Origin: a bacterium
GTDB lineage: Bacteria; Planctomycetota; Planctomycetia; Planctomycetales; Planctomycetaceae
Length of the DNA: 64,000 nucleotides
NCBI GenBank assembly: GCA_016125225.1
Contig: WGME01000011.1
Location: forward strand, 1 to 64,000
Direction of reading: 5' to 3'
How positions within the stretch are numbered: position 1 is the stretch's first letter; every line of letters begins with the position of its first letter. The position numbers and the translations under genes are program-made. This document shows positions 7,164-25,973 of the stretch, piece after piece. The notes beneath the pieces are model-generated. The model searched no databases and was not told where the DNA came from. It saw nothing but the letters and a program-made list of their open reading frames with translations.

Positions 7164-7190
7164 AGTTACCCCGCTAGGATTCGAACCTAG
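7164..7190. repeat. attL: 27-bp copy of the tRNA-Gln 3' end
   Basis: AGTTACCCCGCTAGGATTCGAACCTAG, identical to 30084-30110. Confidence 0.93.
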
Positions 7191-7284: not shown

Positions 7285-8532
7285 ATGGCGAGCCTCGATC
7301 TGACTTACGACAAATCCGAAGACCGCTGGACGAAGAAGGTCAGAGGGATCAAGCAGCGATTCAAGTCCAAGAGGCACGCCACGAAACGGGAAGCCATTGC
7401 ACAGTTCAAGGCATGGTTGAACGAACACGAAGCATCCGAGGCAATGACTGAGGATGAGGAAGAAATCTTGATTCTGATGGAACAGATCGCCGTCGCTGCT
7501 TCCAACGAACAAGAGCAGATAGACAAGCTGAAACCCCAGAAGCCGTCTCGTGCGTTTGAAAGAGAAGTTGAACGGCAGTTCTCAGGCACCCCCAAAGATG
7601 ACAGCCTCGCCGCCGCCATTGATGCGTTCCTGCGGTTCAAAGAGAACACCATCAGTAAAGGGGCATACAACACCCTGTCTGCACATATTCGGTTCTTCCG
7701 TGGGTTTACCGTGGGTGCCGCAGTTGATGCCTTGCCACGTGATGCATGGGAACAGTTTCACCAGACCATCAAGAAGCGAATCAAGGACAAGGAATGGTCA
7801 AACAAGTACGGCAACTCGATCATTTTGGACGTGAGAGGGTTCTACAACTGGATGTACGATACGGAACGCATCGAAGCTATCCCTCGCTTCGTGAAAAGCG
7901 ACCTCTACACAATTGCTGTACCGTCGAAACTGCCAGCCACCTTCAAGCCCGAAGAGATCAAAGCCATCCTTGCAGCAGCGACCGACGAACAACGCTTGCA
8001 TTACCTGCTGATGCTGAATTGTGGCATGACGCAGATTGACCTGTCTGACTTGACCGCCGATATGATCAACATCAAGCAAGGCACCTTGACAAGACGGCGA
8101 ACCAAACACGAACACCAAGAGAGTGCAGAAATCCCAACAGTTGTCTACACCCTCTGGAAGCCCGTTATCGAGTTGCTGAAAGCACACGGCAAGTTGGACG
8201 GGACAGAGAGGGTGTTTACCAACAGAGAAGGATTGCCATTACTCAGAGGAGCACGAAGGGACACCGTTGCAGAGGCATTCAAGTCGGTCAAAGCGAAAAC
8301 GGGTATCAAGAAAAGCCTGAAGGTGTTTCGTAAGACAGGGGCAACCATTCTCGGATCGAACAAGGATTACCGCACATGGCGAAACATCTACCTTGCCAAC
8401 ACGCCGAAAGAGGTCACGGACAAATCGTATGACGGGACAACGATCCTCGACAATAAATACACCGAACATATCCGCACCGTGTTGGGCATCCCGAACACGC
8501 TGGACGAGTTGCGGACATTACAAAAATTGTAA
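7285..8532 (+). CDS. int: Phage tyrosine integrase
   Basis: SAM-like N-terminal domain, catalytic region to KVFRKTGATILGSNKDYR; adjacent to attL. Confidence 0.8.
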   Translation: MASLDLTYDKSEDRWTKKVRGIKQRFKSKRHATKREAIAQFKAWLNEHEASEAMTEDEEEILILMEQIAVAASNEQEQIDKLKPQKPSRAFEREVERQFSGTPKDDSLAAAIDAFLRFKENTISKGAYNTLSAHIRFFRGFTVGAAVDALPRDAWEQFHQTIKKRIKDKEWSNKYGNSIILDVRGFYNWMYDTERIEAIPRFVKSDLYTIAVPSKLPATFKPEEIKAILAAATDEQRLHYLLMLNCGMTQIDLSDLTADMINIKQGTLTRRRTKHEHQESAEIPTVVYTLWKPVIELLKAHGKLDGTERVFTNREGLPLLRGARRDTVAEAFKSVKAKTGIKKSLKVFRKTGATILGSNKDYRTWRNIYLANTPKEVTDKSYDGTTILDNKYTEHIRTVLGIPNTLDELRTLQKL

Positions 8533-8536
8533 TGCC
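8514..8536. promoter_or_regulatory. Dispersed palindrome copy 1
   Basis: GACATTACAA-AAA-TTGTAATGCC; supplies the int stop codon. Confidence 0.8.
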
Positions 8537-8560
8537 TGAAAGACCAGACACGTGAAAGCA

Positions 8561-8591
8561 ACGGGCAAGGGGAAACGAACCCCTTGCCCGT
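8561..8591. terminator. Convergent hairpin terminator
   Basis: ACGGGCAAGGGG-AAACGAA-CCCCTTGCCCGT between int (+) and 8610-9257 (-). Confidence 0.7.
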
Positions 8592-8609
8592 GTGCATTAC
8601 CAGACAGAC

Positions 8610-9257
8610 CTATGCCGCCGACGCCACGGGTTCCGCCGCCTTGGCGGTAAGTTTCGCCATCAGGTCAGACAACTCTGCCAACCGACGCCGCACGCTCTCC
8701 CGACCTGATGCGTCCAGCGGGGTCTTATCCTCAACCAGACCTTTCAAACTTCGCTTGATGCCGTCCAGCTTGGTCAGCAAGGGACGCACAGGGTTCTTGT
8801 CGGCACCAGCCACCCCGCCCAACAGCTTCCGCTTGGTTTCCATGATGAGGGACATGGTCGGACGTTCGGAACCCGCCGCCTCGATGACCGCAGACCAGAC
8901 TGCTTTCAACTGGTCACCCACCGACGACAATTCAAACGCTTGACCCTCATTCAACGGCAAGACCTCGAAGCCCAACTCTTCCAACTGGTCAGCCACCTTT
9001 GCCGCCGAGATCAAGCGGTAACCCTTCATGTAGGACAGATCAAACCGACGTCCGATGTAGTCGGTCCAAGTTCCCACGAACAAAGTGCCATCTTGCAGAG
9101 CGGACAAGGCGTGTCCGGCATCACGGTAGCCGGTCTGCCAGCCCTCAACCTGACGTTCCAGCTTGACCGCTTCCCGTTGTTCCGTGTTGGTCAGCTTGTC
9201 CTTGATGATTTCTTCTGTGGTGGTGTTCTCGGTGGTGTTCGTGGTGGCGTTGCTCAT
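8610..9257 (-). CDS. Hypothetical phage protein (215 aa)
   Basis: ORF divergent from the HTH gene. Confidence 0.6.
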   Translation of the reverse strand: MSNATTNTTENTTTEEIIKDKLTNTEQREAVKLERQVEGWQTGYRDAGHALSALQDGTLFVGTWTDYIGRRFDLSYMKGYRLISAAKVADQLEELGFEVLPLNEGQAFELSSVGDQLKAVWSAVIEAAGSERPTMSLIMETKRKLLGGVAGADKNPVRPLLTKLDGIKRSLKGLVEDKTPLDASGRESVRRRLAELSDLMAKLTAKAAEPVASAA

Positions 9258-9346
9258 GGTTCAGGACTCCTCAACTTGGGGTTCGTGTCAGCCAGCCCGT
9301 TGCCGTCTGACTCCCCGTATCTGTGGTCCATTTGCAGCCTCTTTTT

Positions 9347-9395
9347 GCGGTCATAATTGACCCTTTTAAATCGCAACGGCAAGATTATTGACCGC
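9347..9395. promoter_or_regulatory. Inverted repeat in divergent intergenic region (candidate operator)
   Basis: GCGGTCATAATTGA ... ATTATTGACCGC. Confidence 0.45.
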
Positions 9396-10209
9396 ATGTA
9401 TCAGAGTTATGAGGTCCAATGTGAACAGAAAAGAAGTATTCCGAGACCGCTTCAGAGAGGTCATTGACCACCACAAGCGGATACATCACCTGAACTTGGT
9501 GGGGATCGCTGCCAGAGCCGACGTATCGCTCAGGTGGGTACGCCGTCTGGTTTCGGAAGGGGTCAGCCATGTCAGGGGCGAACACAAAGCCCAGCTAGAC
9601 AAGTTGTGCGGCTATCTCGGTATCAGCCCCAGCCAGCTATGGGAACAAGAACCGCTGGCACCTGAACCGACCGCCATGCAGCAACGCAAAGGCTTGGACG
9701 CATTCAGCACCGACGAGCTATCCGCCAACCTGTCACTAGCTCGTATGGTGGCACTCGGCTTGATCCATGAAGCCACCGAGGATCACAAGGTCAATCGGTC
9801 AAGACTCTGGTACACGCTGCAACTGTTTGTAGGGCGACTGCAAGAGGAGATCACCAAGGAACTGAACCAAGAGCTAGAGATACCGCCGCCCACGATGTAC
9901 ACAATGCTTTCGAGACGAATTGACCTGTACGAATACGGCACGATCAGCCGCCACCGTCTCATGTCGATTGTCTCGAACATTCTAAAGGTTCTGGACGTAC
10001 CGCTATCAGAGGCAGAAGAGTTTGACCGAGCGATCAGGGAAGAATTGACGTGCAGACCTTACAACACCTTCCAGAAAGATGACACCTTGGCAGCAGCGAT
10101 CATCAAGCGGTTTCTGACGGGGAAAGACCCCGAAGACTACCGCCGTGATCCTGATGACGATGGCGAAACCCCAGAGGAGGCGATCAGAACCGCCTTACAA
10201 AGTTTGTAA
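9388..10209 (+). CDS. HTH regulator (candidate phage repressor)
   Basis: LNLVGIAARADVSLRWVRRLVSEGVSHVRGEHKAQLDKLCGYLGISPSQLWE; divergent arrangement; N-terminal start uncertain. Confidence 0.6.
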   Translation: MTACIRVMRSNVNRKEVFRDRFREVIDHHKRIHHLNLVGIAARADVSLRWVRRLVSEGVSHVRGEHKAQLDKLCGYLGISPSQLWEQEPLAPEPTAMQQRKGLDAFSTDELSANLSLARMVALGLIHEATEDHKVNRSRLWYTLQLFVGRLQEEITKELNQELEIPPPTMYTMLSRRIDLYEYGTISRHRLMSIVSNILKVLDVPLSEAEEFDRAIREELTCRPYNTFQKDDTLAAAIIKRFLTGKDPEDYRRDPDDDGETPEEAIRTALQSL

Positions 10210-10213
10210 GGTC
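10191..10213. promoter_or_regulatory. Dispersed palindrome copy 2
   Basis: CGCCTTACAA-AGT-TTGTAAGGTC; supplies the HTH gene stop codon. Confidence 0.8.
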
Positions 10214-10218
10214 TGCCG

Positions 10219-10440
10219 TTAAGCATCTTGGTTAGATGGTGGGTTCGATGCTAACCACTGCTGAGCCTCTTGAACGAAAGTTTCAAGGCGACTTCGTTTG
10301 AGAAAGAGGACACACGCCTCATCGTTATGTGTCCAAATCGTAACTTCAACCTGTCGCTTCTGGTTGCTGTCAATGTGTACTTTGATGTCCGCTGGGTCAT
10401 CCTTGATGCCGCTGAACTCGATACGACCAAACTTGACCAT
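10219..10440 (-). CDS. Small hypothetical protein
   Basis: 73-aa ORF with plausible composition. Confidence 0.4.
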   Translation of the reverse strand: MVKFGRIEFSGIKDDPADIKVHIDSNQKRQVEVTIWTHNDEACVLFLKRSRLETFVQEAQQWLASNPPSNQDA

Positions 10441-10602
10441 GATGCTTCCCCTCGATTGACGTTATGCTGATTTGAATGGCGTATATCACAATGTCATGAA
10501 GACCTGATGAACAAGGCGGTGTTTCGCTGTCCGTAAGCCCTTCCAATGCTCTGCCCCCCTGTTCTGACCCGTTTTCGCCTCTATCGTGCGTTATCGAGCG
10601 AA

Positions 10603-10821
10603 TTAGAGGGTGTTTTGAGGCATCTTTCCCAAGAGCCTGACCACGTAACGGCGATGGTCTAGGGCTTGTTCGATGATGGCTGGCTGTAAGGGAGACTTGC
10701 CGACCCTGACCTTGATACAGACCCCTTGCATCAACCCCTGTAGTTTCTGTTCCACTGTCTTGGGGATTGTCAGGTTGTCTCTGGTTTTGATGTTGTCTTG
10801 GGGGTTCTGCTGTCTGGTCAT
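10603..10821 (-). CDS. Small hypothetical protein
   Basis: 72-aa ORF. Confidence 0.35.
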   Translation of the reverse strand: MTRQQNPQDNIKTRDNLTIPKTVEQKLQGLMQGVCIKVRVGKSPLQPAIIEQALDHRRYVVRLLGKMPQNTL

Positions 10822-11493
10822 GTCTCTCGCCCTATATCTTCTATTCCATTTTCTAAATCCTCAGTACGTACCACCCCCTTGTGGACGCTGCCCCGCCACG
10901 GAGTAAGGGTTAGGTGTTGCCTCAGGTCTGGGTATCCCGTCTCTGGTTTACCGCTAGGGTTGTGCCAGTTAGGTGTTCCCTCCCAACAAAAGGTGTTGGT
11001 CCTGTGGGGTTTCCCGACTACTTCCTCATCCTACTTATCAGAAGACAAGTAGAAATGCTCCTTAGTATGGGTATAGCTATCAGACTGACTCACCCAGACA
11101 AGACTGAAATGAGATACTCCGTCTGACCCACGGCTACACATCGAGACCCATTGCCAGAGTCTCCACCCACTTGCCACCTGACCCCGTAGGATCAACAAGT
11201 CATGTCACCACGGCTTGTGACTGGTTACTTGCCGTTGCATCGGCTTGGACCAATCCTGCCCGTACCTACCCGAAACTGCCCCGAATAGGTGGAGTGCTTG
11301 TGTCTACATCCAGCCAACCGCCCGGCATGGCAAATGGTGCCTGTCAGAGTGCCAGTCTATCACCATGAGATGTAGTGCATGGTGAGGGGCAGGGTAACCC
11401 GTCCAAGAGTTACCTGTCTGGCAATATGTCTATCGCCAGCATGAAAGTATTATAGTGCGGTCGCTTCATTTTTTGAAGATGCGGTGTTTTTTC

Positions 11494-11533
11494 TTTTGGT
11501 CCCAAAGTTCGACAAGACAACTTTTGGACCAAA
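11494..11533. repeat. Inverted repeat, 15-bp arms with 1 mismatch
   Basis: TTTGGTCCCAAAGTT-CGACAAGAC-AACTTTTGGACCAAA. Confidence 0.65.
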
Positions 11534-11718
11534 TCTCCCATAAGCCTTATGGTTATAAGACAGAACTATAAGTAACTGACTCATGCAGAATACATAAAAT
11601 AATGATAAAATGGCGATTCAGGTGCAAAGAGGCAGAAACCACGGAAGACGTTTGGGGAAAAGTCAGAAGCCCCGATGTTCTCGGCAGGTAGCATCTGCAC
11701 GAGGGCGGCAGAGAATTT

Positions 11719-12327
11719 CTAGCATTTAGATTCAAGTAGTTGTGCTTCATCAATTATCCGTTGTCCAATCGCACGAACCTGATGGTGGTTGAGCCCTTCG
11801 TCGATGTCACAGGATATGGTGATCTGAGTTCCAAGTTCGGCAAGAAGTGAATTTACTTTCGAGACTTCTGAAATGATATTGATGCGAACGGTCCTTGTGA
11901 TTGACAGCATGGTTCTGGTTTCCTGCCCGTGTTCATCCGGGCTGGGACGTTTCATAAGGTCTACGAGCAAACCGGCAATAGTCTGACGCATCGTAAACAA
12001 CGCTTGTGCTGCCTTTTGGGAGCGATTCTTATCAATTAGCTTGGCATTGGCAGCATCTAAGTCTTGCATCAGGCGGCGACCTGCATCTCCACCTTTGAAG
12101 TATAAATCAACGATTACTCTTAGAGGCACTAGAACAATCGCTGCCAATGTCCCAAGAAGCACAGCATCTTTGCTGGCGGTGTCGTACAGCTTGATAGCTG
12201 TCACCGCAAAGCCACCTACATACAAACCCAATGTAGAGAGAGAAATAATGAATTTAGCACGCTCACTTGGAAGTGCTGGTGACCACCGTGCTCTGTCTGC
12301 CCAGAAATCGAGCATCGTGTGTTTCAT
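11719..12327 (-). CDS. Membrane protein, two predicted TM segments
   Basis: MKHTMLDFWADRARW...FIISLSTLGLYVGGFAVTAIKLYD...VLLGTLAAIVLVPLRVIVDLYF. Confidence 0.6.
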   Translation of the reverse strand: MKHTMLDFWADRARWSPALPSERAKFIISLSTLGLYVGGFAVTAIKLYDTASKDAVLLGTLAAIVLVPLRVIVDLYFKGGDAGRRLMQDLDAANAKLIDKNRSQKAAQALFTMRQTIAGLLVDLMKRPSPDEHGQETRTMLSITRTVRINIISEVSKVNSLLAELGTQITISCDIDEGLNHHQVRAIGQRIIDEAQLLESKC

Positions 12328-12345
12328 ATCGTGACTTCGCCTATT

Positions 12346-12639
12346 ATGCCCTCGAAACTCTGCCCCCATTGCGGTCACACCTACACGGATCGACCGTGTT
12401 GCAAGCTGTCTGCCCCCAGACCCGCCTACCATAGCCTCTACCGTTCGGACTGGTGGAAGCGGGTTCGGGTTCAGGTTCTTGCCACTGATCCGGTTTGCCG
12501 TGTCTGCACGAACGCAATCGCCACCGAAGTAGATCACATCATCCCGCACCGTGGCAACTGTGACCTGTTTCATGACCTCGATAACCTGCAACCCATCTGC
12601 CACCGCTGCCACACGGGAAAATCAGGGCGTGGCGGATAG
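12346..12639 (+). CDS. HNH endonuclease
   Basis: CPHCGHTYTDRPCC..., VCRVCTNAIATEVDHIIPHRGNCDLFHDLDNLQPICHRCHTGKSGRG. Confidence 0.85.
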   Translation: MPSKLCPHCGHTYTDRPCCKLSAPRPAYHSLYRSDWWKRVRVQVLATDPVCRVCTNAIATEVDHIIPHRGNCDLFHDLDNLQPICHRCHTGKSGRGG

Positions 12640-12693
12640 ATAGACGTGGACGATGCCACAGTGGTCACACACAGATCACACGACAACGCCGCA

Positions 12694-12716
12694 GACATTA
12701 CAAAAGTTGTAAGGTC
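12694..12716. promoter_or_regulatory. Dispersed palindrome copy 3
   Basis: GACATTACAA-AAG-TTGTAAGGTC. Confidence 0.8.
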
Positions 12717-13213
12717 GATGGTTGCAGACAGAGGAGTAGCTGCCGTGCTCTATGTGTCAAGCTGGATTGTGCTGTGTCTTGTGAGTGAATGTCGATATGT
12801 CGGCGAAATCGTTGCAGACGGAAAGGTTTCGCCGGTTGCTGCAACCTGCCGTATCTTCCCAGTCTCTTTTTATGCTCAATTATCTTGGAGTTAACCGAAA
12901 AAGGTTGTGCTTACTCGGAAGGAGTTGTGCCTTACGACAGAGGAGTGATCCGAATGAGAAAGAAGCAGCGGATGCTTGTCCATTCTAAACGAGGTAGCAA
13001 GCTCGGACCAAGCATGGTTGCAAGTCTGTGTGTGGTTTCGTTTCTGAGTCTGCTTCTGCTGATCATCATCAATTCGTTCGGATACTAAATATTGATTAAG
13101 GCTATGCATACCTAAACATTAGACACAGGGTCATTTTCTCCGTGCGTGAGGACGGAACAACGCCCGCTGCCCTTACCGTTTTTTTTGATCCTCGCCCGAC
13201 GCCTATTAACGCC

Positions 13214-13522
13214 ATGAAACTGAACCGTAAAGCCGCCGCCTATCGCAAGTTGCTCGAACGGGACTACCCATCAAGTCCGCTGGTCGATGTGGTGGCTGAT
13301 ACCCTTGCCCGTTACGAAGAGTGCAAGACCATCGTTGAGGCGGACGGCTTGTTACCGAATGGGAAACCACATCCGCTCCTGACCCAACTGCGAAGCCTTG
13401 CCCAAACGGTGACCTCAGCTATCAAGGTCATGCCGCAACCGAAAGAGACACCCCAGAGCGAAAGCACCCTGACTAAGTTACTCAACCGTAAACCCCGTGG
13501 CACCAAACACCCCGACAATTGA
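13214..13522 (+). CDS. Probable terminase small subunit
   Basis: Position before TerL, HNH-TerS-TerL order; MKLNRKAAAYRKLLERDYPSSPLVDVVADTLARYEECKTIVE. Confidence 0.6.
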   Translation: MKLNRKAAAYRKLLERDYPSSPLVDVVADTLARYEECKTIVEADGLLPNGKPHPLLTQLRSLAQTVTSAIKVMPQPKETPQSESTLTKLLNRKPRGTKHPDN

Positions 13523-15110
13523 ACTGCCGACCGACGCCGCAGCCATCCGTGAAGGGTGTTTCCTTGACCTCAGTTATGGGGAATATGTCTGTGAAGTTGT
13601 CGAGTCGATTTGCACCCTGACCACGGGAAAGTTTCAGGGACAACCGATAACCCTACTCCCGTGGCAACGTCGGTTGATTCACACGCTGTACGGTTGGCGA
13701 ACCAAGGGCAACCGCCGACGCTTCACCACGGCACACGTCTGGATACCTCGCAAGAACGGCAAGACCGAACTCGCCGCCGCCCTGACGTTGTACCATCTGC
13801 TGTTCGACCACGAAGCGAACCCCAACATCTACTTTGCCGCCAGCAGCATCGACCAAGCCAATCTTGCCTATCTGGCGACCACCAATTTCATCCTGAACAA
13901 TGCCGACATCAGGAAAGCGACTTGGTTACGGCGGCATATCAAGCGTATCGAGATCGTCCGCAACGGCACCTATCCTGCTGGTGGTTTCTGTCAGGTTCTC
14001 TCAGGATCAGGCAGAGCCAAGCAAGGTTTGAATTGTTCTTTTGCGGTCGCTGATGAGGTCGCCGAGTGGGGCAACCGTGAACTCTATGACGCCATCAAAT
14101 TGAGCATGGCGGCACGGTCGGAACCCCTGATGCTGACCATTTCCACGGCGGGGTATGACAAGTCCGGCATCGGGATCGGGTACGAGTTGTACCGATACAG
14201 CAAGCGAATCCAGTCTGGTGAGATCATCGACGACTACCGCACGTTGCCCGTCATCTACGAAGCCCCAGAGGAATCAGACTGGACAGACCTTGAAGAATGC
14301 AAAAGTTGTAATCCGTCATTCGGACACATCACGCAACCTGAGTTCTACACGCAACTCCTGACCGAAGCCAAAAACGAACCGATGAAGGAAGCCGCCTATC
14401 GGACGTTCCATCTGAACCAGTGGGTGGGCAACGCCAAGACTTGGTTACCGTCACTGTGGTGGTCGAAGTGTGCCGACACATTTACGGCTGATGATTTCGA
14501 CGGTCAGCCGTGCGTGATCGGCGTAGACCTCAGTATGCGGCATGACCTGACGGCGTATGTCTGCCTGTTCGAGCGGAATGGTCACTACTACGCCTTGCCG
14601 AGGTTCTTTATTCCTGAAACCTCAGCACAGGAACAGCAGATCAGGAGCAAGATACCGTACCTGAGTTGGTCGAAGGCGGATCAGATCACCCTCACACCCG
14701 GAGAGAGCATTTTTTACCGAGCGGTGAAAGAGTCGCTCGAAGATGACCTAAGCCGCTTCGATGTGCTGGAACTCCGCTTTGACCCGTATGGAGCGAAAGC
14801 CCTGATTGAGTCTATCGAGCAGGATCACATCGTCAGTTGTGTGGAGGTCAGGCAGAGCCGCCCGCACATGTCCCCCGCTACGGTCGAGTTCTACAACTGG
14901 ATCAAGGAAGGGGTGTTCCACCATCCGAACAACCCCGTGTTGAACTGGAACGCACAGAACGCCGTCGCCAGAGAGGACAACTTAGGCAGACCGCTCGTGG
15001 AAAAAGGGAAGTGTCTGCAACGGGTGGACGGGATCACGGCAAGCATCATCGCCGCCACGTATCACACTCGGTATCAGGACGATGAACCGGCGAGGTATCT
15101 GGTTGTCTAA
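13497..15110 (+). CDS. terL: Phage terminase large subunit
   Basis: LLPWQRRLIHTLYGWRTKGNRRRFTTAHVWIPRKNGKTELAAAL, FAVADEVAEW, nuclease-type VIGVDLSMRHDLTA. Confidence 0.92.
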   Translation: MAPNTPTIELPTDAAAIREGCFLDLSYGEYVCEVVESICTLTTGKFQGQPITLLPWQRRLIHTLYGWRTKGNRRRFTTAHVWIPRKNGKTELAAALTLYHLLFDHEANPNIYFAASSIDQANLAYLATTNFILNNADIRKATWLRRHIKRIEIVRNGTYPAGGFCQVLSGSGRAKQGLNCSFAVADEVAEWGNRELYDAIKLSMAARSEPLMLTISTAGYDKSGIGIGYELYRYSKRIQSGEIIDDYRTLPVIYEAPEESDWTDLEECKSCNPSFGHITQPEFYTQLLTEAKNEPMKEAAYRTFHLNQWVGNAKTWLPSLWWSKCADTFTADDFDGQPCVIGVDLSMRHDLTAYVCLFERNGHYYALPRFFIPETSAQEQQIRSKIPYLSWSKADQITLTPGESIFYRAVKESLEDDLSRFDVLELRFDPYGAKALIESIEQDHIVSCVEVRQSRPHMSPATVEFYNWIKEGVFHHPNNPVLNWNAQNAVAREDNLGRPLVEKGKCLQRVDGITASIIAATYHTRYQDDEPARYLVV

Positions 15111-15142
15111 CTCAGCTAACTTAGCTAACTCAGCTAACTACA
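15107..15142. repeat. 9-bp tandem repeat x4 (CTAACTCAG) at the terL stop
   Basis: CTAACTCAG CTAACTTAG CTAACTCAG CTAACTACA. Confidence 0.8.
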
Positions 15143-15496
15143 TTTACTCAGTAAAGTCATTCCAAGAAAATACTTACAGCGTGTTGACGTTATTGTTTCA
15201 GCGGATACAATGCCCCATCCCCAAAGCGGAAGGAGGTCGTCACATGTAAAACGCTAAAATGGTCACACTCGCCAAATTGATGCAGCGGACCTACTATTTC
15301 TCTGAAAGTTATTGTTAGAAAGAACCAATTCATGAAAAATCTGAAGACAGATTGGCTCAAACAATGTTTCTCTCTTTTAAGTTCGAAAAGAAGAAAACCA
15401 AAAATTCCGATACGTTGAGTTGCTCTTTTGAGATTGACATCTGGAAGCTGCTCTTCATCGCTGACTTCCTTGGTCATTTAATCCCGTAGTACTGGC

Positions 15497-15530
15497 GGCG
15501 GTGGAAGGACATTTCTTCCACCGCCGTTTT
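15497..15530 (+). terminator. Rho-independent terminator
   Basis: GGCGGTGGAAG-GACATTT-CTTCCACCGCC-GTTTTCTTT. Confidence 0.8.
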
Positions 15531-15716
15531 CTTTCCACGTCCCCTACAGGAATCTCACAATCTATCAGAATGACGAGCCTGCGAAGTACCTGATAGAAAG
15601 ATGGTTGAGACTGTTTTCGATTTTCTGAATTGTCAAACAGGATTCGCCCTTGTCAGTATTCTCAAACGCCCTAGATTGGCTACAGACCGAACCAACACCT
15701 TCAAAGGAGTGACGTT

Positions 15717-16001
15717 ATGCCGGAAGAGCTATCGGATTATCACAAGCCAGCCTCCCCGATAGCAGAGGGGAACTATTCAATCCATGAAATTCGCCAGATT
15801 ACCGGAAAGACCGTAAAAAAGGTGGAGTATGGGAATCGCAAATCGATTTCTGGCGTACACGAAAGCGAACTGATTTTGCTTCACTTTACAGACGGAACTT
15901 CACTGTCCCTCATGACTGGAAGCAATGCCAAGAACATTTTGGACAAGCCAGAATCTCTTCATGTAGATTTTATGCTGCAATGGGTTAAACCTAAAGAGTG
16001 A
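15717..16001 (+). CDS. Hypothetical phage protein
   Basis: 94-aa ORF with SD AAAGGAG. Confidence 0.6.
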   Translation: MPEELSDYHKPASPIAEGNYSIHEIRQITGKTVKKVEYGNRKSISGVHESELILLHFTDGTSLSLMTGSNAKNILDKPESLHVDFMLQWVKPKE

Positions 16002-16022
16002 ATATCTGACTGAGCAGTCCAG

Positions 16023-16055
16023 TGGCGTCAAGGGATTTTCCTTTGACGCCATTTT
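16023..16055 (+). terminator. Hairpin terminator upstream of portal
   Basis: TGGCGTCAA...TTGACGCCATTTT. Confidence 0.65.
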
Positions 16056-16056
16056 C

Positions 16057-16090
16057 GTGTCCACGTCCCATACATAGGACATGTGGACAC
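16057..16090 (+). promoter_or_regulatory. Hairpin enclosing portal SD and start codon
   Basis: GTGTCCAC-GTCC-CATACATA-GGAC-AT-GTGGACAC; ATG at 16081. Confidence 0.6.
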
Positions 16091-17433
16091 AATTACGAAA
16101 CCTCTATTACGCCCTGTCGAATCCCAGAGCCGCAACGCTTCTCTCTGGCATCAGCACGCCCATTCCCGATATTTCGGTCACACGGGAAACCGTACTCGGC
16201 TACCCCGCCGTGTGGGCAGCGGTCAATCTGATCAGCCAGACCGTCGCCAAGCTGAAACCCTATCCTTACAAGCGGATTGACGACACAGGTCGAAAACTCG
16301 ACCGCCGCCACCAAGCCTACCCGCTACTGGCGAATAAGGCGTCCCGCTACGTTTCGGCTTCCAACTTCCGCTTGGACATGACTGCGTTAGCCCTGATTCA
16401 CGGCAACGCTTACGCATGGGTCAGACGCAACTCTTTGGGCGAACCCGAAGAACTGGTGATTCTTGATCCACGGTCCAGTTACTTCGACCAGATGACAGGG
16501 GTCTACCGCAGCACGGTCTACACTGACCAACAGCCCAATACCGTGCAAATCCTGCCCGAAAATGTGATTCACATTCGGGGTCTGGGTGGCGATGGCATCA
16601 ATGGGTATCCCGTCGTCAGCATTCTCGCCGATGCTCTCAGTAACTCGCTGGCATTGCAGAAAACTTCGGTCTACAGCTTCGGGAACAGTATGCACCCCAG
16701 CGGTGTGATCGAGACCCCGAACACCATCACGAAGAACGTAGACGAACTCAACCAACTACACGAGTCTATCGAGAAGAAATATGCCGGTCTGAGCAAAGCC
16801 GGAAAACTGATGCTGTTGCAAGGGGGACTCAGCTACAAGCCCGTCACCTTCAACGCCGAAGAAATGCAGTTCCTACAGTCCCGTGAATTCGACCTCCGAA
16901 CGATTGCCCTGATCTTCGGTCTCGGTGGTTGCGTCCACAAGTTGGCATCGTCAGTCAATTCGTCCTACGGCAGTATTGAAGCCGCATCCCTCGAATTCCT
17001 AGACGCTATCGACTTCTGGCTCTGCCAATGGGAGACCGAACTCTCTGACAAGTTGCTGACCGAACGCCAGAAAGACAACGACAGTCATTACATTGAATTC
17101 AACCGAGAAGCCCTGATCCGTATGGACATGTTGAACAAGGTCAATGCCATCGTGACCCAACGCAATAACGGTCTGTTGAATACGGATGAAGCACGAGCCT
17201 TGCTGAATCTGTCCCCACTGCCTGACGAACTTGGCGAGACCTACTATCTCCCTGCGAACCTCGTGCCGATGGGTCAGGAGAACGCAGACCCGCAGACCAT
17301 TGACCCCGATCAGGACAGTACGCCGCTGGAATTGCAGCAACAGCTAGACGCTACGGCAGGACAGGGGGGCAAAGAAGACGACCTTACAAAAGTTGTAATG
17401 TCCGAAACACAGGAGACAACCCCCGATGAGTAA
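16081..17433 (+). CDS. Phage portal protein (HK97 family)
   Basis: YPAVWAAVNLISQTVAKLKPYPYKR...GNAYAWVRRNSLGEPEELVILDP...DALSNSLALQKTSVYSFGNSMHPSGVIETP. Confidence 0.93.
   Translation: MWTQLRNLYYALSNPRAATLLSGISTPIPDISVTRETVLGYPAVWAAVNLISQTVAKLKPYPYKRIDDTGRKLDRRHQAYPLLANKASRYVSASNFRLDMTALALIHGNAYAWVRRNSLGEPEELVILDPRSSYFDQMTGVYRSTVYTDQQPNTVQILPENVIHIRGLGGDGINGYPVVSILADALSNSLALQKTSVYSFGNSMHPSGVIETPNTITKNVDELNQLHESIEKKYAGLSKAGKLMLLQGGLSYKPVTFNAEEMQFLQSREFDLRTIALIFGLGGCVHKLASSVNSSYGSIEAASLEFLDAIDFWLCQWETELSDKLLTERQKDNDSHYIEFNREALIRMDMLNKVNAIVTQRNNGLLNTDEARALLNLSPLPDELGETYYLPANLVPMGQENADPQTIDPDQDSTPLELQQQLDATAGQGGKEDDLTKVVMSETQETTPDE
17380..17402. promoter_or_regulatory. Dispersed palindrome copy 4
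   Basis: GACCTTACAA-AAG-TTGTAATGTC near the portal 3' end, upstream of the protease start. Confidence 0.8.
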
Positions 17434-17980
17434 ACCCGAATACCGCAGCCTTGCCGTGATGCCGACCACCACTGACCAGACGATCCAAGGTTATGCCGCC
17501 ACCTATTGGGACGGCACCGCTGATACCGAGTTCCGCCAAGGTCGCTTTGTGGAACGCCTCTTGCCGGACTCACTCGAACTCAGCCCAGCCCTGTATGCCT
17601 GTCTGGATCATGATGACTCAAGGGTGCTGGATCATGTGAAAGCCACCTTGACGACCGTGCTGGATGCCAGAGGCTTGGCGTATGCGTTTCCGTTGCGGGA
17701 ACAAGACCCCGACCATAGCACGCTCAAAGCCAAACTCGACGGCGGCTTGATCACGGGTTCTTCGGTGGCGTTCGTGATCACGGACGAAGACTGGAAACGG
17801 GAACGCACCGATCAGGTGCGTTACGTCAAGCGGGCAACCGTTTTGCATGTCTCGCCTGTCTATATCCCAGCGTATCCCGCCACCAGTGCAGACCTTCGCA
17901 GCCAACAGAATCTTTCCGCCTTGTACCAGAAATATCAGACAAATCTGCGAGTGGCACGCTTACATAAACTGGCGTTGTAG
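17426..17980 (+). CDS. HK97-family prohead protease
   Basis: IQGYAATYWDGTAD...RFVERLLPDSLE...ALYACLDHDDSRVL...GGLITGSSVAFV. Confidence 0.88.
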   Translation: MSKPEYRSLAVMPTTTDQTIQGYAATYWDGTADTEFRQGRFVERLLPDSLELSPALYACLDHDDSRVLDHVKATLTTVLDARGLAYAFPLREQDPDHSTLKAKLDGGLITGSSVAFVITDEDWKRERTDQVRYVKRATVLHVSPVYIPAYPATSADLRSQQNLSALYQKYQTNLRVARLHKLAL

Positions 17981-18019
17981 TCCAGCCTCGAACAACGCCT
18001 GCCATCTTTGTTTGACCGA

Positions 18020-18060
18020 CCGCAGACCATCACGTTAGCCCCGATGGTCTGCGGTTTTTT
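18020..18060 (+). terminator. Rho-independent terminator upstream of capsid
   Basis: CCGCAGACCATC...GATGGTCTGCGG-TTTTTT. Confidence 0.85.
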
Positions 18061-18096
18061 GTTGCCCGTTACAAAACTTGCATTCTAGAACCCTAG

Positions 18097-18123
18097 ATAC
18101 CTCACACCTATCCCATGTGAGGT
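18097..18123 (+). promoter_or_regulatory. Hairpin enclosing major capsid SD
   Basis: TACCTCACA-CCTATCCCA-TGTGAGGTA, ATG at 18128. Confidence 0.6.
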
Positions 18124-18127
18124 AAGT

Positions 18128-19411
18128 ATGGACTATTTCCAAAGTAAGAAACTCCGTGAAGAACGGGCAGAGATTTGGGCGAAGATGAACGCCCTGTCTG
18201 ATGAGGTCATTGCCGAAAACCGTGCCATGTCCGCCGAAGAAATGCAGACCTTCGACAACTTCGATAACGACATCCGCACGCTTGATGACAAGATTGCCAG
18301 TGCGGAACGAGTCGAAAAGACCCAAGAGCTACGGGGAGCCAAAGCGGTTAAAGCCGACAGCACCATTCACGCCCCGCTGTCCCGTCAGGTGGTCAATGCC
18401 GCCTTGAAGGGTTTCATCCTCAATAACTCCCAGAAAAGCCAGTACGTTAGTGACGAAATGCGATCCGCCATGCAACGCTGCTCCCTGACTGGTCCCAGCT
18501 TCTCGGTTGAAAACCGTGCGTTAGAAGTTGGCACTCCAACTGGTGCGGGATACTTCACCCAAGAACAGCTTTTGCAAGGCATCATCCAAGCGGTGAAAGC
18601 CTATGGTGGGATGCGGAACCTCGCCACCGTCATTCAGTCCGCCAATGCCAACCCGCTGCCGTGGATCGTGGAAGACAACACCAGCACCGAAGCCGTGATC
18701 CGTGCCGAAGGTGCCAACACGACCTTTACCGATAACGTAATCGGCAAGAAAACCCTTGGCGGCTATGTCTTCACGACCGGAATCAAGGTCACGGTCGAAA
18801 TGCTCCGTGACTCCTATTTCGATCTACTCGGTTATGTTTCCCGTGCCTTGGGCGAACGTCTGGCTCGTGGCACCAATCGCAAGTTTTGTGTGGGTGCGGG
18901 ATCAGGCAGTGATGAACCTTGGGGACTGCTGACCCGGACCTCGGCTGGCGTGACCACGAGCGATGTCGATGCCTTTGACTTCGATGACCTGATTGACTTG
19001 GAACACAGCGTAGACCCCGGCGTCAGAAACATGGGGAACTGCCAGTACCAGTTGCATGATTCCGCCTTGAAGGTCATTCGCAAGATCAAAGACGACAACT
19101 TGCGTTACATCTGGCAACCGTCACCAGTCCCCGGCGTTCCATCGACCATCAACGGCTACAGCTACACCGTGAACCAGCATTACGAAGCGATGGGGACCGA
19201 TGAAAATCGTGTGCTGACCTTTGGTGACCACAGCTATTACACAATTCGAGACGTAGGCACGATGGATTTCGTCGTGTTGAACGAACTCTACCGACCATCA
19301 GAGGGTGCCATCGGCTTCATGATGGAATCGACCCATGATGCTGACCTGATCGTGCCATCGGGTTTCCATCCCGTGAAGCATTTGGAACTCGGTACGGGTG
19401 CTTCTGCCTAA
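18128..19411 (+). CDS. HK97-like major capsid protein with N-terminal delta domain
   Basis: Coiled N-terminus then GTPTGAGYFTQEQ...GGYVFTTGIKVTVEMLRDS...GVTTSDVDAFDFDDLIDLEHSVD. Confidence 0.95.
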   Translation: MDYFQSKKLREERAEIWAKMNALSDEVIAENRAMSAEEMQTFDNFDNDIRTLDDKIASAERVEKTQELRGAKAVKADSTIHAPLSRQVVNAALKGFILNNSQKSQYVSDEMRSAMQRCSLTGPSFSVENRALEVGTPTGAGYFTQEQLLQGIIQAVKAYGGMRNLATVIQSANANPLPWIVEDNTSTEAVIRAEGANTTFTDNVIGKKTLGGYVFTTGIKVTVEMLRDSYFDLLGYVSRALGERLARGTNRKFCVGAGSGSDEPWGLLTRTSAGVTTSDVDAFDFDDLIDLEHSVDPGVRNMGNCQYQLHDSALKVIRKIKDDNLRYIWQPSPVPGVPSTINGYSYTVNQHYEAMGTDENRVLTFGDHSYYTIRDVGTMDFVVLNELYRPSEGAIGFMMESTHDADLIVPSGFHPVKHLELGTGASA

Positions 19412-19438
19412 TCCGCAGTCACAGTAACGGAAGAACTC

Positions 19439-19469
19439 AGAGAGACCAGCGTCAAAAACTGGTCTCTCT
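19439..19469 (+). terminator. Hairpin downstream of capsid (possible terminator)
   Basis: AGAGAGACCAG-CGTCAAAAA-CTGGTCTCTCT; no clear U tract. Confidence 0.5.
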
Positions 19470-19485
19470 GTTCGTACATACTTCC

Positions 19486-20022
19486 ATGTTGAAACTGATC
19501 ACCCAATCTTCTGACCTCCCCGTGAGCCTGACTGACATCAAGGCACACTTGGTTATTGAACACACTGCCGACGATACCCGCTTGACGGCGTTGGCGTGGG
19601 CAGCGGTCTTGTACATCGAAAAAGAGACCAACCGCAGCTTTACGGCGAATACCTATGACCTGATTTTGTCGGGGTTTGCCGACCGTATCTATCTCCCGAT
19701 GCCGCCCTTAGCCAGCATCACCAGCGTGACCTACTACGACACGGACAACCAATTACAAACATTGGATTCCGCAGACTACTACCTGATCACGGGGAGATGG
19801 CGACAAGCCTACATAGAACCTGTCACCAGTTACCCCGCCACGTATTCCCGTCCTGATGCCGTGACCGTGCGTTTCGTGACAGGGGCAGCGAATGACGAAA
19901 TGTTCAAGTTGGCGGTCAAGTTGCTGGTAGGTCACTGGAACGAGAACCGAGAGGGTCAGGATGTCCCGCACGGCTTTGACCGCATCCTGAACTGCCTGAC
20001 CAATTGGCGGGAGGTCATCTAA
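19486..20022 (+). CDS. Head-tail connector (gp6-like)
   Basis: PVSLTDIKAHLVIEHTADDTRLTALAWAAVLYIEKETNRSF. Confidence 0.85.
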   Translation: MLKLITQSSDLPVSLTDIKAHLVIEHTADDTRLTALAWAAVLYIEKETNRSFTANTYDLILSGFADRIYLPMPPLASITSVTYYDTDNQLQTLDSADYYLITGRWRQAYIEPVTSYPATYSRPDAVTVRFVTGAANDEMFKLAVKLLVGHWNENREGQDVPHGFDRILNCLTNWREVI

Positions 20023-20346
20023 ATGATCACAGGCAAGCTACGTCATTTGGTCACCATCGAACAACCCAGCACCAGCCGTGACAGCACGGGACAAGTCAAT
20101 CCCGCTGATGAGTGGTCCACGTTTGCCACCCGCACCGTGGCCATCGAACCGACCACGAGCACCGAACCCAATGGGGAGAAACCCGAAGCCCAGACCACCT
20201 ACAAAGTCACGATGCGGTATCTGTCGGGGTTGTCTCACAGTCACCGGATCAAGTGGGGTTCCCGTGTGTTTCAGATCACGGGCATCGTAAACCCAGAGGA
20301 AAGAAACCTCTGGCAGGAGGTCACCGTCGTTGAGCGTATCGGTTGA
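20023..20346 (+). CDS. Phage head closure/adaptor protein
   Basis: GKLRHLVTIEQPSTSRDSTGQVNPADEWSTFATRTVAIEP...VFQITGIVNPEERNLWQEV. Confidence 0.88.
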   Translation: MITGKLRHLVTIEQPSTSRDSTGQVNPADEWSTFATRTVAIEPTTSTEPNGEKPEAQTTYKVTMRYLSGLSHSHRIKWGSRVFQITGIVNPEERNLWQEVTVVERIG

Positions 20347-20725
20347 TATTCGTGGTTTGAATCGAGTGCTCAAGCAACTGCGGAACCTTGAACCCAAGTT
20401 GTCAAAAAAGGTGCTTCGTAAAGCCCTGCGAGAGGGTGCCAAGGTTGTCCAGAAAGAGGCGAAAAGCACCATTCCCAAGGTGTCAGGCACCACACGCAAG
20501 AGTCTGAAAGTCCGAGCGGGCAAACGCAGTAAGCACACGATCCGCTTCAAGATGGTGACGGCGTTTCCCAAGAGTGACGCCGACGCCTTTTATTACAGTT
20601 TTGTCGAGCTAGGCACCCAATACATCAGAAGACGGAACTACCTGAAAGAGGCGACCGACCGCAAACGGCATGAGGTCTTACGGCAGGTCGAACAGAGCAT
20701 CCGAGCGGGATTACAAAGTTTGTAA
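20330..20725 (+). CDS. HK97 gp10-like tail-joining protein
   Basis: GLNRVLKQLRNLEPKLSKKVLRKALREGAKVVQKEAKSTIP. Confidence 0.88.
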   Translation: MSVSVDIRGLNRVLKQLRNLEPKLSKKVLRKALREGAKVVQKEAKSTIPKVSGTTRKSLKVRAGKRSKHTIRFKMVTAFPKSDADAFYYSFVELGTQYIRRRNYLKEATDRKRHEVLRQVEQSIRAGLQSL

Positions 20726-20729
20726 GGTG
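20707..20729. promoter_or_regulatory. Dispersed palindrome copy 5
   Basis: GGGATTACAA-AGT-TTGTAAGGTG; supplies the gp10 stop codon and lies 6 nt before the next ATG. Confidence 0.8.
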
Positions 20730-20734: not shown

Positions 20735-23170
20735 ATGTCGTTAGCGAGTTACAGTCTAATCGTCGAAGCCGATGATGGGTCATGGCGTTACGATCCACCT
20801 TCTGGCAGTCTGACCCTCACGACCAATTTTGTAAACATCGAAGACAATGAGGGAACCTATGAGTCTACCGCCTTATTCTTGCGGTTCTCTGGGATCAACA
20901 TTGACCCCGCTTCTATTACCTCTGCCAACCTGACCTTAATCGCCAACACGACCCGTAGCGGTACGATGGGGGTCAAGGTGTGGGGAATCGACCTAGACAA
21001 CCCATCGGCTCCCGCTTCCGCTGCTGCCGCCACTGCCTACCGCAGCAATTACACGACGGCTTATGTCACCGACACGATTGGGGCAACCACATCGGGAACC
21101 GCTTGGACCGTTGATGTCACCGACATCATTCGAGAGTTGTTCGAGTCCTACACATTCGACGGTAAATCGTTGATGTTGTATGTCGAACCCAACGATACAC
21201 CGAACCGTTCCAGAGTCTTTTATGCTGCGGGAAGTGGTAGCCCGCCCGTCTTGGACATCAACTATTCCACTGGTGGCGGGACAACTTACGATGAGGTCGC
21301 CGAAGGTGGTCTCGTTGCTGGTGGTCAAACCCTACTCAGTACCGATGTGGTTGCCTCTGGTGGTGTTCTTGCTGGTGGGGCTGCTGTCGATACGTTCCAA
21401 CATTACGAATTCGCATCAGCCACAATCACCGCCACCAGTACCGCTACCGCCAATGCCGTGCGAATCCGCCCCATCAGCAGCACCATTGACGCAACCAGCA
21501 CAGCCGCCGCTGCTGCCCTGAGAATCCGTAAAGCCGAAAGCACGATCATAGGACAGGCAACCGCATCGGCAGCGATTCAGGTGAGTTACCGCAACACAGG
21601 GGCAGGCGGAATGGTGGCAGGGGGCACCTCCCGCCTGACCCGTCGCCTCAAAACCTCTGGCACGATCACTGCCGTTGCTGACGTGACAGGGTATGCCACC
21701 GCTATCTATGACCAACAGACCACAGGGGCAGCACTCGCATCAGGACAAGCCACCGCACAGGTGACGCATCAACCCACGGCAACCGTTGCAGCCGTCGCCA
21801 CAGTCACGGTGTCTGCGATCAACAGGGAAGCTATCGAAGTTTCCGCCACGGTTTCCGCTGTCTCGGAAATGCTGGTCACGGTGGGCTACCTGGTCCCCAC
21901 TGCCTCTAGCCTGGTGGGAACGTCGTCTGCAACTGCCCACGCCAGCAAGCGACTGACGGCACAAACCACGATAGAGGCACTCGAAACAGTTTCCGCCGTT
22001 GCCCATCGCACCCGCAACACGTCGGCAATGTTTACAACTTTTGTCATGTCGGAAGCGGAAACCACCCGGACCCGTAACACCGCCGCCACGATCACAGGCA
22101 CCAGCACAAAGACCGCTGATGCCGTGTTCCTGATCAACTGTGCCGCCACGGTCTCTGTCACCAGCACGGGAGAGGTCTCCGCCCACCGCACGGCGTCGGG
22201 TTCGGCATCGGTCACAGGCAGCAGCACGACCGAAGCCACCGCCGCACGCATCACCCCAGCTTCCGCCACGGTTGCCGGTTTGTCGGACGCCGAGAGTTTT
22301 GCCCGTGCGATCTATTCAGGGTCAGCCGACATTACAAACTTTGTAATCTCGGAAGCCCATGCCAGAGCCGATTACCAGACCGCCGCCACGATCACATGTC
22401 AGTCAGTCACTCAGGTTACCAGCATTTACCGACCGACGACTTTACCCGACCAGATTTACAACTGGTTAAGCGATCAACTCAGCGTTGCCCTGTATCCGTT
22501 AGTCTTGCCCCGAAATGTCACGCTCCCTGCAATCACCTACGGCAGACGGGCGACCGAGTTTGTGTATTACCTCGATCAGCCCAGCACCCAGCGAATCACC
22601 ACGTTGGGCTTTGACATCTTTGCCCGTTCCCAAGCCGAAGCCATCAATCTGACGGCTGAACTGGTGGAAGCCCTGCACGATTACCGTGGCAACATCGGGA
22701 ACACAATTGTGTCTCACGCCGAACTGATCAGCTTGGATGACACGGTGTTTGACGATGCTGGCGAGAACCATCAGGGAATCATTCGCAGCCTAGATTTTGA
22801 AATCATTCACAATCACCGCAGAGACGTTACCGCCACGGTCTGGACAGGGGACACCGACCTTGCCGAGTACCTGCAAGACTTCACTGCCCAACAGGTGACG
22901 ATGGTGCCAGACCTGACCGACAGTCGCCCGCTGATCACGGTCACGAGAGAGGGAACCGGACTCGAAACCTACATCGGTAACACGAGACCCTACACCGATG
23001 CCGATTACACCATCCGCATCGACAGCACCAGCTACGCCACAACCCTAGCCCTTGCAGACACGCTACGCCGGTCTCTGGGAAATCAGGTCGATGACGAGTC
23101 GGACACGTTTGATTTCACCAGTGATAACCAGCCCCTTTACCGCACAGAGTTAGCAATCAGTTTTTCGTAG
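20735..23170 (+). CDS. Fused protein: N-terminal beta-sandwich (DNRLRE/CBM-like), long T/S/A repeat array, C-terminal tail-terminator (DUF3168-like) region
   Basis: N-term ESTALFLRFSGINIDPASITSANLTLIAN; degenerate ATITGTSTxTAxAxRIR repeats; C-term VTLPAITYGRRATEFVYYLDQPSTQRITTLGFDIFARSQAEAINLTAELVEALHDYRG. Confidence 0.75.
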   Translation: MSLASYSLIVEADDGSWRYDPPSGSLTLTTNFVNIEDNEGTYESTALFLRFSGINIDPASITSANLTLIANTTRSGTMGVKVWGIDLDNPSAPASAAAATAYRSNYTTAYVTDTIGATTSGTAWTVDVTDIIRELFESYTFDGKSLMLYVEPNDTPNRSRVFYAAGSGSPPVLDINYSTGGGTTYDEVAEGGLVAGGQTLLSTDVVASGGVLAGGAAVDTFQHYEFASATITATSTATANAVRIRPISSTIDATSTAAAAALRIRKAESTIIGQATASAAIQVSYRNTGAGGMVAGGTSRLTRRLKTSGTITAVADVTGYATAIYDQQTTGAALASGQATAQVTHQPTATVAAVATVTVSAINREAIEVSATVSAVSEMLVTVGYLVPTASSLVGTSSATAHASKRLTAQTTIEALETVSAVAHRTRNTSAMFTTFVMSEAETTRTRNTAATITGTSTKTADAVFLINCAATVSVTSTGEVSAHRTASGSASVTGSSTTEATAARITPASATVAGLSDAESFARAIYSGSADITNFVISEAHARADYQTAATITCQSVTQVTSIYRPTTLPDQIYNWLSDQLSVALYPLVLPRNVTLPAITYGRRATEFVYYLDQPSTQRITTLGFDIFARSQAEAINLTAELVEALHDYRGNIGNTIVSHAELISLDDTVFDDAGENHQGIIRSLDFEIIHNHRRDVTATVWTGDTDLAEYLQDFTAQQVTMVPDLTDSRPLITVTREGTGLETYIGNTRPYTDADYTIRIDSTSYATTLALADTLRRSLGNQVDDESDTFDFTSDNQPLYRTELAISFS
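22328..22350. promoter_or_regulatory. Dispersed palindrome copy 6 (inside CDS)
   Basis: GACATTACAA-ACT-TTGTAATCTC. Confidence 0.75.
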
Positions 23171-23217: not shown

Positions 23218-23625
23218 GCAGACCTAACAATCAAGGGGATGTCTATCGCCTGTGAATTCAGCACAGGCACTTATACCGCAATCGCCAACGTTGAAAGTTT
23301 CTCAGGTCCAAACCCTGAGATCGACATGTTTGAAGTGTCGTATCTGGGTGACACCTACGTCACGAAGAAACCGACCGTCATTAACTCTGGACAACTCACG
23401 CTGACCATCGGTTATGACCCAGACAACACCACGCACCAGAACCTACGCACCAACTTTGTCGCCGGTACGGTGAAATCCTTCCGTGTCAGCTTCACCGACA
23501 GCAGCCCGACCACGTTTACGTTTGACGGGTTCGTGAAGTCGTTCACGATCACAGGTGGTACGTCCCGTGATCAGAACAAAGCCGAAGTTGTGATCGAAAT
23601 CACCGGCAGCATCACTGTTGCCTAG
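23215..23625 (+). CDS. Phage tail tube / major tail protein
   Basis: STGTYTAIANVESFSGPNPEIDMFEVSYLGDTYVTKKPTVINSGQLTLTIGYDPDN. Confidence 0.88.
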   Translation: MADLTIKGMSIACEFSTGTYTAIANVESFSGPNPEIDMFEVSYLGDTYVTKKPTVINSGQLTLTIGYDPDNTTHQNLRTNFVAGTVKSFRVSFTDSSPTTFTFDGFVKSFTITGGTSRDQNKAEVVIEITGSITVA

Positions 23626-23634
23626 TAAGGAACC

Positions 23635-23958
23635 ATGTTTACAGTAGAACGCAAGCAAGTACCGATCACCTTTTGTGGGCAATCCCTGTTCATTCAGGAG
23701 TTTTCCGCTCGTGACTTGGAGCAATTCGAGACCCTCTGTTACGAAGTGCAGACCAATCGAGCCAACAACGCCTTTCGTCGGACCTTGCTGAGTCTCTGTC
23801 TGGTGAACGCACACGGCGAAAAGGTGGCGACGGTGGAAGACCTAGCCGAAGTCCCCGCCCGTGAGATCATCACCGCAGCGAACAAGGCACTCGAACTGAA
23901 CCAACTCAATCGCAACGCTGTGGATGACCTCGAAAAAAACTCCGTAGACAACCGCTAA
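23635..23958 (+). CDS. Tail assembly chaperone, zero-frame product (gpG-like)
   Basis: Position between tail tube and TMP; ends DDLEKNSVDNR after the slippery site. Confidence 0.85.
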   Translation: MFTVERKQVPITFCGQSLFIQEFSARDLEQFETLCYEVQTNRANNAFRRTLLSLCLVNAHGEKVATVEDLAEVPAREIITAANKALELNQLNRNAVDDLEKNSVDNR

Positions 23959-23980: not shown

Positions 23981-24209
23981 CCGTCAACTCGGCATGACCC
24001 ACGGGGAACTCTTGGACCGGATGACCCGTGAGGAACTGTTAGAGCAGATCGCCTACGAACGGTTGAACCCTGAACCGTCTATCCCGCACATGTTCGCCCT
24101 GATCATGTCCGCCCTCACAGGCGAACGTCCTACCAAGTTTCTGCCTCAACCAGAGCAGAGCATCGAAGACACCAAAGCAAGGTTTTTCGCTCTCGCCGCC
24201 CCTACATAA
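23940..24209 (+). CDS. -1 frame extension of tail assembly chaperone (gpGT-like, ~191 aa total from 23635)
   Basis: After slippage: LRRQPLRQFSLRLSRQLGMTHGELLDRMTREELLEQIAYERLNPEP, no stop until 24209. Confidence 0.88.
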   Translation, partial: LRRQPLRQFSLRLSRQLGMTHGELLDRMTREELLEQIAYERLNPEPSIPHMFALIMSALTGERPTKFLPQPEQSIEDTKARFFALAAPT

Positions 24210-24225
24210 GGCATGGCAGCGAAAA
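24184..24225 (+). promoter_or_regulatory. Hairpin enclosing TMP SD and start codon
   Basis: TTTTCGCT-CTC-GCC-GCC-CCT-ACATA-AGG-CAT-GGC-AGCGAAAA, ATG 24213. Confidence 0.6.
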
Positions 24226-25928: not shown

Positions 25929-25949
25929 CATTACAAAAATTGTAATGCC
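25927..25949. promoter_or_regulatory. Dispersed palindrome copy 7
   Basis: GACATTACAA-AAA-TTGTAATGCC overlapping the TMP stop. Confidence 0.85.
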
Positions 25950-25973
25950 AGCCTGCCTACATAGGGCATGGCT
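25950..25973 (+). promoter_or_regulatory. Hairpin enclosing SD and start codon of 25968 gene
   Basis: AGCC-TGCC-TACATAG-GGCA-T-GGCT, ATG 25968. Confidence 0.5.

Follow-up and report, generated by a model that had tools for sequence, protein, structure and literature searches.

A dispersed 23-bp palindrome supplies the stop codons of unrelated genes in a planctomycete prophage

The stretch of DNA analysed here (the window: 64,000 nucleotides, positions 1 to 64,000 of contig WGME01000011.1, assembly GCA_016125225.1) comes from a planctomycete whose genome falls in one family with those of Planctopirus, and contains a prophage of 22.9 kb, which is bounded by 27-bp att repeats of the end of a tRNA-Gln gene at 7164 and 30084. 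The prophage encodes an integrase, a terminase, portal, protease and capsid proteins, connectors and a tape measure protein. Dispersed among these genes is the subject of this work, a palindrome whose consensus over the aligned prophage copies is the 23-bp sequence GACMTTACAANNNTTGTAAKGTC, with the 15-bp core TTACAA-N3-TTGTAA. The core occurs eight times in exact form in the window, each time within the prophage, and two further copies appear degraded (Table 1). Its arms are perfectly palindromic, asymmetry being confined to the 3-bp centre.

An original prediction, made from the sequence alone, held that this palindrome supplies the C-terminus and the stop codon of three unrelated proteins, and this is what we find. 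The integrase gene ends at 8532 with ACA TTA CAA AAA TTG TAA (TLQKL-stop), the gene of a helix-turn-helix (HTH) protein at 10209 with GCC TTA CAA AGT TTG TAA (ALQSL-stop), and that of the neck (gp10-like) protein at 20725 with GGA TTA CAA AGT TTG TAA (GLQSL-stop); in all three the right arm of the palindrome provides the TAA. The stop codons of the tape measure gene and of gene 26825-27181 had also been predicted to overlap a copy, which is true for the extended 23-bp site and not for the core. The tape measure stop, TGA at 25926-25928, is separated by a 2-bp gap from the core and shares with the 23-bp site the GA of its GAC flank, whereas the TAG at 27179-27181 lies 3 bp from the core and shares only the first G of the site. 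This site (27181-27203) in addition shares bases with the stop of the convergent gene 27202-28143, which is on the opposite strand.

Five of the eight cores lie within 5 bp of the 3' end of a gene, compared with 2.75% of all positions (P about 8e-7), and seven lie within 60 bp (P about 7e-6). The eight cores are spaced more evenly than random (coefficient of variation (CV) 0.42, P 0.014). Since one copy is found deep in gene 20735-23170 and another in the portal gene, gene ends are preferred by the palindrome, not required.

Table 1. Positions of the palindrome copies and of the features discussed in the text (window coordinates unless stated otherwise)
Feature	Position	Strand	Exact core	Remarks
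Palindrome copy 1	8514-8536		8518-8532	core encodes TLQKL-stop of the integrase; between the convergent integrase and 8610-9257(-) genes
Palindrome copy 2	10191-10213		10195-10209	core encodes ALQSL-stop of the HTH protein
Palindrome copy 3	12694-12716		from 12698	intergenic; stop of the HNH gene 59 bp before
Palindrome copy 4	17380-17402		from 17384	3' end of the portal gene, read as DLTKVVM; portal stop 35 bp on; protease start just downstream
Palindrome copy 5	20707-20729		20711-20725	core encodes GLQSL-stop of the neck/tail-completion protein; next gene from 20735
Palindrome copy 6	22328-22350		from 22332	within gene 20735-23170, core 824 bp inside
Palindrome copy 7	25927-25949		from 25931	flank and tape measure stop (TGA) overlap; orthologous C32 junction without the whole site
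Palindrome copy 8	27181-27203		from 27185	overlaps both stops of the convergent genes 26825-27181(+) and 27202-28143(-)
Degraded copy	22032-22046			1 core mismatch; within gene 20735-23170
Degraded copy	29846-29860			2 core mismatches; 6 bp 3' of the stop of gene 29463-29840
Tyrosine integrase	7285-8532	+		ends in the palindrome
Candidate binder, 215-aa regulator-like protein	8610-9257	-		homologues in C32, G034, G020, G086 and cyanobacterial plasmids
Different palindrome, GGTCATAATTGACC	9349-9362			promoter region between the divergent regulator and HTH genes; GCCGGTCACGCTGACCGGC at this place in C32
Rival candidate binder, XRE/Cro-C1-like HTH protein	9421-10209	+		divergent from 8610-9257
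Neck/tail-completion protein	20330-20725	+		phrog_5
attL-like 27-bp repeat	7164-7190			tRNA-Gln 3' end
attR-like 27-bp repeat	30084-30110			within tRNA-Gln 30085-30156(-)
TGATTTCN4GAAATCA copies on pPLIM01	2620, 8990, 12902, 18249, 21384, 25164, 32399, 36364 (pPLIM01)			

The product of 20735-23170, the gene that holds both an exact and a degraded copy, is 811 amino acids long; its middle is repetitive and its C-terminal region resembles a tail terminator (phrog_347 at 572-694). The stretch from the HTH gene to the HNH gene (10.2-12.3 kb of the window) has few convincing genes; one encodes a putative membrane protein (11719-12330, minus strand). Prophage gene 28617-29432 is weakly similar to lipopolysaccharide heptosyltransferase genes.

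In this genome the exact core is confined to two prophages. In 300 order-2 Markov shuffles of the window prophage the exact core did not occur once, and in the whole 6.35-Mb genome it occurs ten times, with eight copies in the window prophage and two in a related prophage of the same genome on contig C32 (tape measure proteins 74% identical); none was found in the host genome outside these two. The C32 prophage spans from 1 to about 27 kb of its contig, its left end being cut off by the contig start, and no integrase resembling that of the window was found on the contig. The 197 genomes searched as relatives have 0-3 exact cores each, and in the genomes of the same family the core is not above background. 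A scan of IMG/VR with the 23-bp pattern gave no match to the strict form and five to a relaxed form, no one of the five showing several exact cores over the stretch examined, and scans of viral contigs for further phages with the site, using the capsid and A1, gave no matches. The restriction of all ten exact copies in 6.35 Mb to two prophages led us to reject a host-wide motif. It also bears on the idea that the copies are sites for a regulator or nucleoid protein encoded by the host and exploited by the prophage. The presence of the core in two related prophages of one host would fit this idea; in view of the absence of exact sites elsewhere in the host genome and the background level in same-family genomes we find it very unlikely.

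What formed the shared protein tails can be judged best at the neck gene. The C32 orthologue, which is 79% identical over the last 48 aligned residues and has no palindrome, ends in GLASVI-stop and not in GLQSL-stop, which argues that the tail comes from selection on the DNA, as the original prediction had it. In line with this, the palindrome is also found between genes and in other reading frames, it constitutes extra DNA at two window junctions relative to C32, and the phage-plasmid pPLIM01, which carries a different palindrome (see below), likewise draws stop codons from its sites. In this one orthologue pair the LQxL ending occurs only with the palindrome, and its retention through other codons in a gene lacking the palindrome was not seen. 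The further expectation that the ending would be an extension beyond the conserved domain was not borne out: the last codons are replaced, and the window tail is one residue shorter than that of C32. Close homologues of the integrase and HTH C-termini were not found, which confines the comparison to the neck protein, one of the three; the genome has more distant integrases with different ends, too diverged to serve as a test.

The junctions of orthologous genes in the two prophages differ accordingly in length. The tape measure gene is followed in the window by 39 bp, palindrome included, before the next gene begins, and in C32 by 7 bp; the window genes 26825-27181 and 27202-28143 are separated by 20 bp with the palindrome, whereas their C32 counterparts overlap. 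There is also a C32 copy at the start of gene 14501-15550 (minus strand), where the corresponding window junction has none. Sites are gained and lost at orthologous junctions while the reading frames remain intact. Such turnover could be taken to mean that the copies lack a regulatory function and are scattered repeats connected with recombination, packaging or mobile elements (e.g. a miniature inverted-repeat transposable element or a packaging signal), and the position of copies at the integrase ends of both the window prophage and pPLIM01 would suit this idea. The similarity between copies ends at 23 bp, with centre and flanks differing from site to site, and two unrelated palindromes have a similar layout in the two phages; a mobile repeat is disfavoured by the lack of similarity outside the 23 bp, and we give this explanation as a whole very little credence.

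Placement at gene ends also raises the question whether the palindrome acts as RNA, as a hairpin that serves as a terminator or as a processing or stability signal at mRNA 3' ends. Seven of the eight copies fold better than their shuffles (z about -2.5 to -5), as any palindrome would, and the copy at 20711 folds no better than shuffles. The stem would be AT-rich, and the sequences do not look like an intrinsic terminator, having no U-tract and no compensatory changes in the arms. The outer positions (including -1/+1) vary independently between the arms, columns 4/20 are unpaired in four of the seven distinct copies, and the observed pairing of the outer arms is no better than in shuffles. Some copies lie within genes, and recognisable hairpins with G+C stems adjoin some copies instead. 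Because the two arms do not covary, the sequences speak for half-sites read in DNA by a dimeric protein rather than for an RNA stem under selection, and we regard a role as an RNA element as highly improbable.

We hold it, with moderate confidence, that a dimeric DNA-binding regulator encoded by the prophage binds the palindrome and acts prophage-wide, most likely on transcription. With about eight sites over a 23-kb genome, mostly at gene junctions, the bound protein would reach all parts of the prophage, and its most likely effect in the lysogen would be to block read-through or new starts of transcription. It would then work like the stoperators of mycobacteriophages or the dispersed O_B sites of KorB. 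Sites at gene ends would cost little, because the TTG TAA of the right arm, or a TGA formed with the GAC flank, can double as the stop codon of the gene. The low-cost placement of a regulatory site had been part of the original prediction. The sequences show the site itself, its confinement to two prophages, its placement at gene ends, the shared stop codons, the turnover between the prophages and the independence of the arms, whereas its regulatory nature (binding by a protein, the phage origin of that protein, silencing, and which protein it is) is something we still infer.

Two genes near the left end of the prophage are candidates for the binder. The product of 8610-9257 is slightly favoured over that of 9421-10209, because exact or near copies of the palindrome lie 3' of its gene in three loci, an association noticed post hoc. 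In the window the exact copy at 8518 is 77 bp after the stop of 8610-9257, across the convergent junction with the integrase; in genome G034 an N-truncated homologue (48% identical) is followed 2 bp after its stop by the 1-mismatch copy TTGCAAATTTTGTAA; and in C32 a 2-mismatch copy lies 4 bp after the stop of the homologue. The G034 locus (G034:C1:627985-628560) is an isolated relative of 8610-9257, followed by the 1-mismatch palindrome and a hairpin, and resembles a prophage remnant. Searches of genome contigs and viral contigs for additional phages with the site found no relatives of the HTH protein or of 8610-9257.

Alternatively, the XRE-like protein 9421-10209 could be what binds the site, as the immunity repressor in a system of the stoperator type. 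Such a role is a special case of the preferred reading and is counted within it; we consider it possible, though on the unlikely side. By profile the protein is the best HTH candidate (weak matches to Sigma70_r4 and HTH_26, and an XRE chain in PDB with E 0.007), and copy 2 ends its gene. On the other hand, no close homologue was found with which co-occurrence could be tested, and the palindrome nearest its promoter is a different one, GGTCATAATTGACC. Divergent regulator/XRE pairs are also present in C32 (22573-23151(-) with 23306-23824(+)) and G020. A GGTCA-N3/4-TGACC palindrome is present in the divergent promoter region of both prophages (C32: L062 3183-3201), and on this ground it is likely a local operator apart from the dispersed site, perhaps the operator of the XRE protein. 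In C32 the divergent pair is followed by a gene with a ParB-like nuclease domain and a DNA methyltransferase gene.

It must be noted that several observations weigh against a prophage-wide regulator. An exact and a degraded copy lie deep within gene 20735-23170, and the divergent promoter region 9258-9420, where the operator of a classical repressor would be expected, contains no copy of the dispersed site. The near-copies in G034 and C32 were found after the fact. Both proteins are no more than candidates for the binder, and AlphaFold models of the two made without an alignment were poor (mean pLDDT 40 and 50) and unusable. Finally, the system is poorly conserved even between close relatives, since C32 has only two exact cores, which lack the outer GAC/GTC.

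A parallel case is found in pPLIM01 of Planctopirus limnophila (NC_014149.1; 37,010 bp, circular), a distant relative of the window prophage to which a weak homologue of 25968-26828 led. Its palindrome, TGATTTCN4GAAATCA, is unrelated to that of the window and present eight times, in one case with a mismatch; the spacing of these copies is more even than expected at random (CV 0.31, P 0.002). In the RefSeq gene calls the left arm supplies the TGA stop of gene 2215-2622 and of the tyrosine recombinase gene 24051-25166, and the orthologous element of G107 has the same palindrome-supplied stops. A de novo palindrome search in related prophage loci and IMG/VR relatives found strong dispersed enrichment only in the window and in pPLIM01. 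The two phages are alike in having eight copies over the genome and in deriving stop codons from them, in each case including that of a tyrosine recombinase. They differ in the sequence of the palindrome, in the extrachromosomal state of pPLIM01, in its full ParB, and in that fewer of its copies (two of eight) lie within 60 bp of gene ends, so that the layout resembles that of the window and is not identical to it.

The pPLIM01 ParB (ParB_N and HTH_ParB domains) opens a different explanation, in which the palindromes are dispersed centromere or loading sites, through which a ParB-type protein organises, condenses or partitions the phage genome and silencing is secondary. The pPLIM01 palindromes are possible dispersed ParB sites. 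This plasmid is extrachromosomal and combines eight evenly spaced palindromes with ParB; TGATTTCN4GAAATCA also occurs in G107:C42, where ParB is the only gene in common with pPLIM01 (30% identity, 9e-54), and in a chromosomal element of G034, which keeps a C-terminal fragment of ParB; and the spacing in the window is fairly even too. Against this, G034 shares three other genes with pPLIM01 besides the ParB fragment, and the window prophage is integrated in the chromosome and has no ParB detectable by tblastn. The resemblance of 8610-9257 to a ParB DNA-binding domain is seen by eye only: the protein has no Pfam match, and hhalign, run with the regulator family on two phage ParBs, lent no support. 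We judge ParB-like loading unlikely. We are doubtful also of a broader generalisation, in which the temperate phages of planctomycetes would commonly silence or organise their whole genomes through palindromes at even spacing, with a sequence specific to each phage lineage, read by a regulator with a ParB-like DNA-binding domain and fitted into gene ends by reuse of an arm as the stop codon.

The results show that a DNA site can dictate protein C-termini, and that unrelated proteins can share a tail with neither homology nor common function behind it. A few phage groups (mycobacteriophages, SPbeta) are known to have dispersed silencing sites, and the gene regulation of Planctomycetota phages is little studied; for the latter the searchable literature yielded no report of sites of this kind. 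With two phages that carry different palindromes it can now be asked which regulator reads them, and genetic tools have been published for Planctopirus limnophila, the host of pPLIM01 (PMC11958385).

It is instructive to compare the window palindrome with the dispersed sites described in other systems. The stoperators of Cluster A mycobacteriophages (L5 gp71, Bxb1 gp69) are repressor sites present in many copies, mainly intergenic, for which an elongation block in the prophage was proposed (PMC3029335, PMC9283540). As with these, one site occurs here in many copies over the genome of a temperate phage, mainly at gene boundaries. The L5 and Bxb1 sites, in contrast, are 13 bp long, asymmetric and orientation-dependent and number 24-34 per genome, while the window has eight copies of a 23-bp palindrome, which is absent from the promoter of the candidate repressor and in several cases supplies a stop codon. 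SPBRE of the Bacillus phage SPbeta is a dispersed 15-bp repeat recognised by the phage master repressor MrpR (PMC10516654). It shares with the window palindrome its dispersal in a phage genome, and differs in that its sites for a tyrosine-recombinase-like repressor are located in promoter regions, whereas the window sites cluster at gene 3' ends. Plasmid RK2 has about 12 palindromic O_B copies dispersed over its sequence. They are the operators of KorB, a ParB-family protein acting at a distance (PMC11790492). The likeness here is that the palindromes of the window, G034 and C32 (exact, with one and with two mismatches, respectively) lie 3' of homologous regulator genes, and the difference is that no ParB_N CTPase domain can be recognised in the candidate 8610-9257. 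The window site would work like stoperators, SPBRE or KorB/O_B, but we do not class it with any of them, because it is palindromic, no copy lies at the promoter of the candidate repressor, and ParB_N is missing from the candidate.

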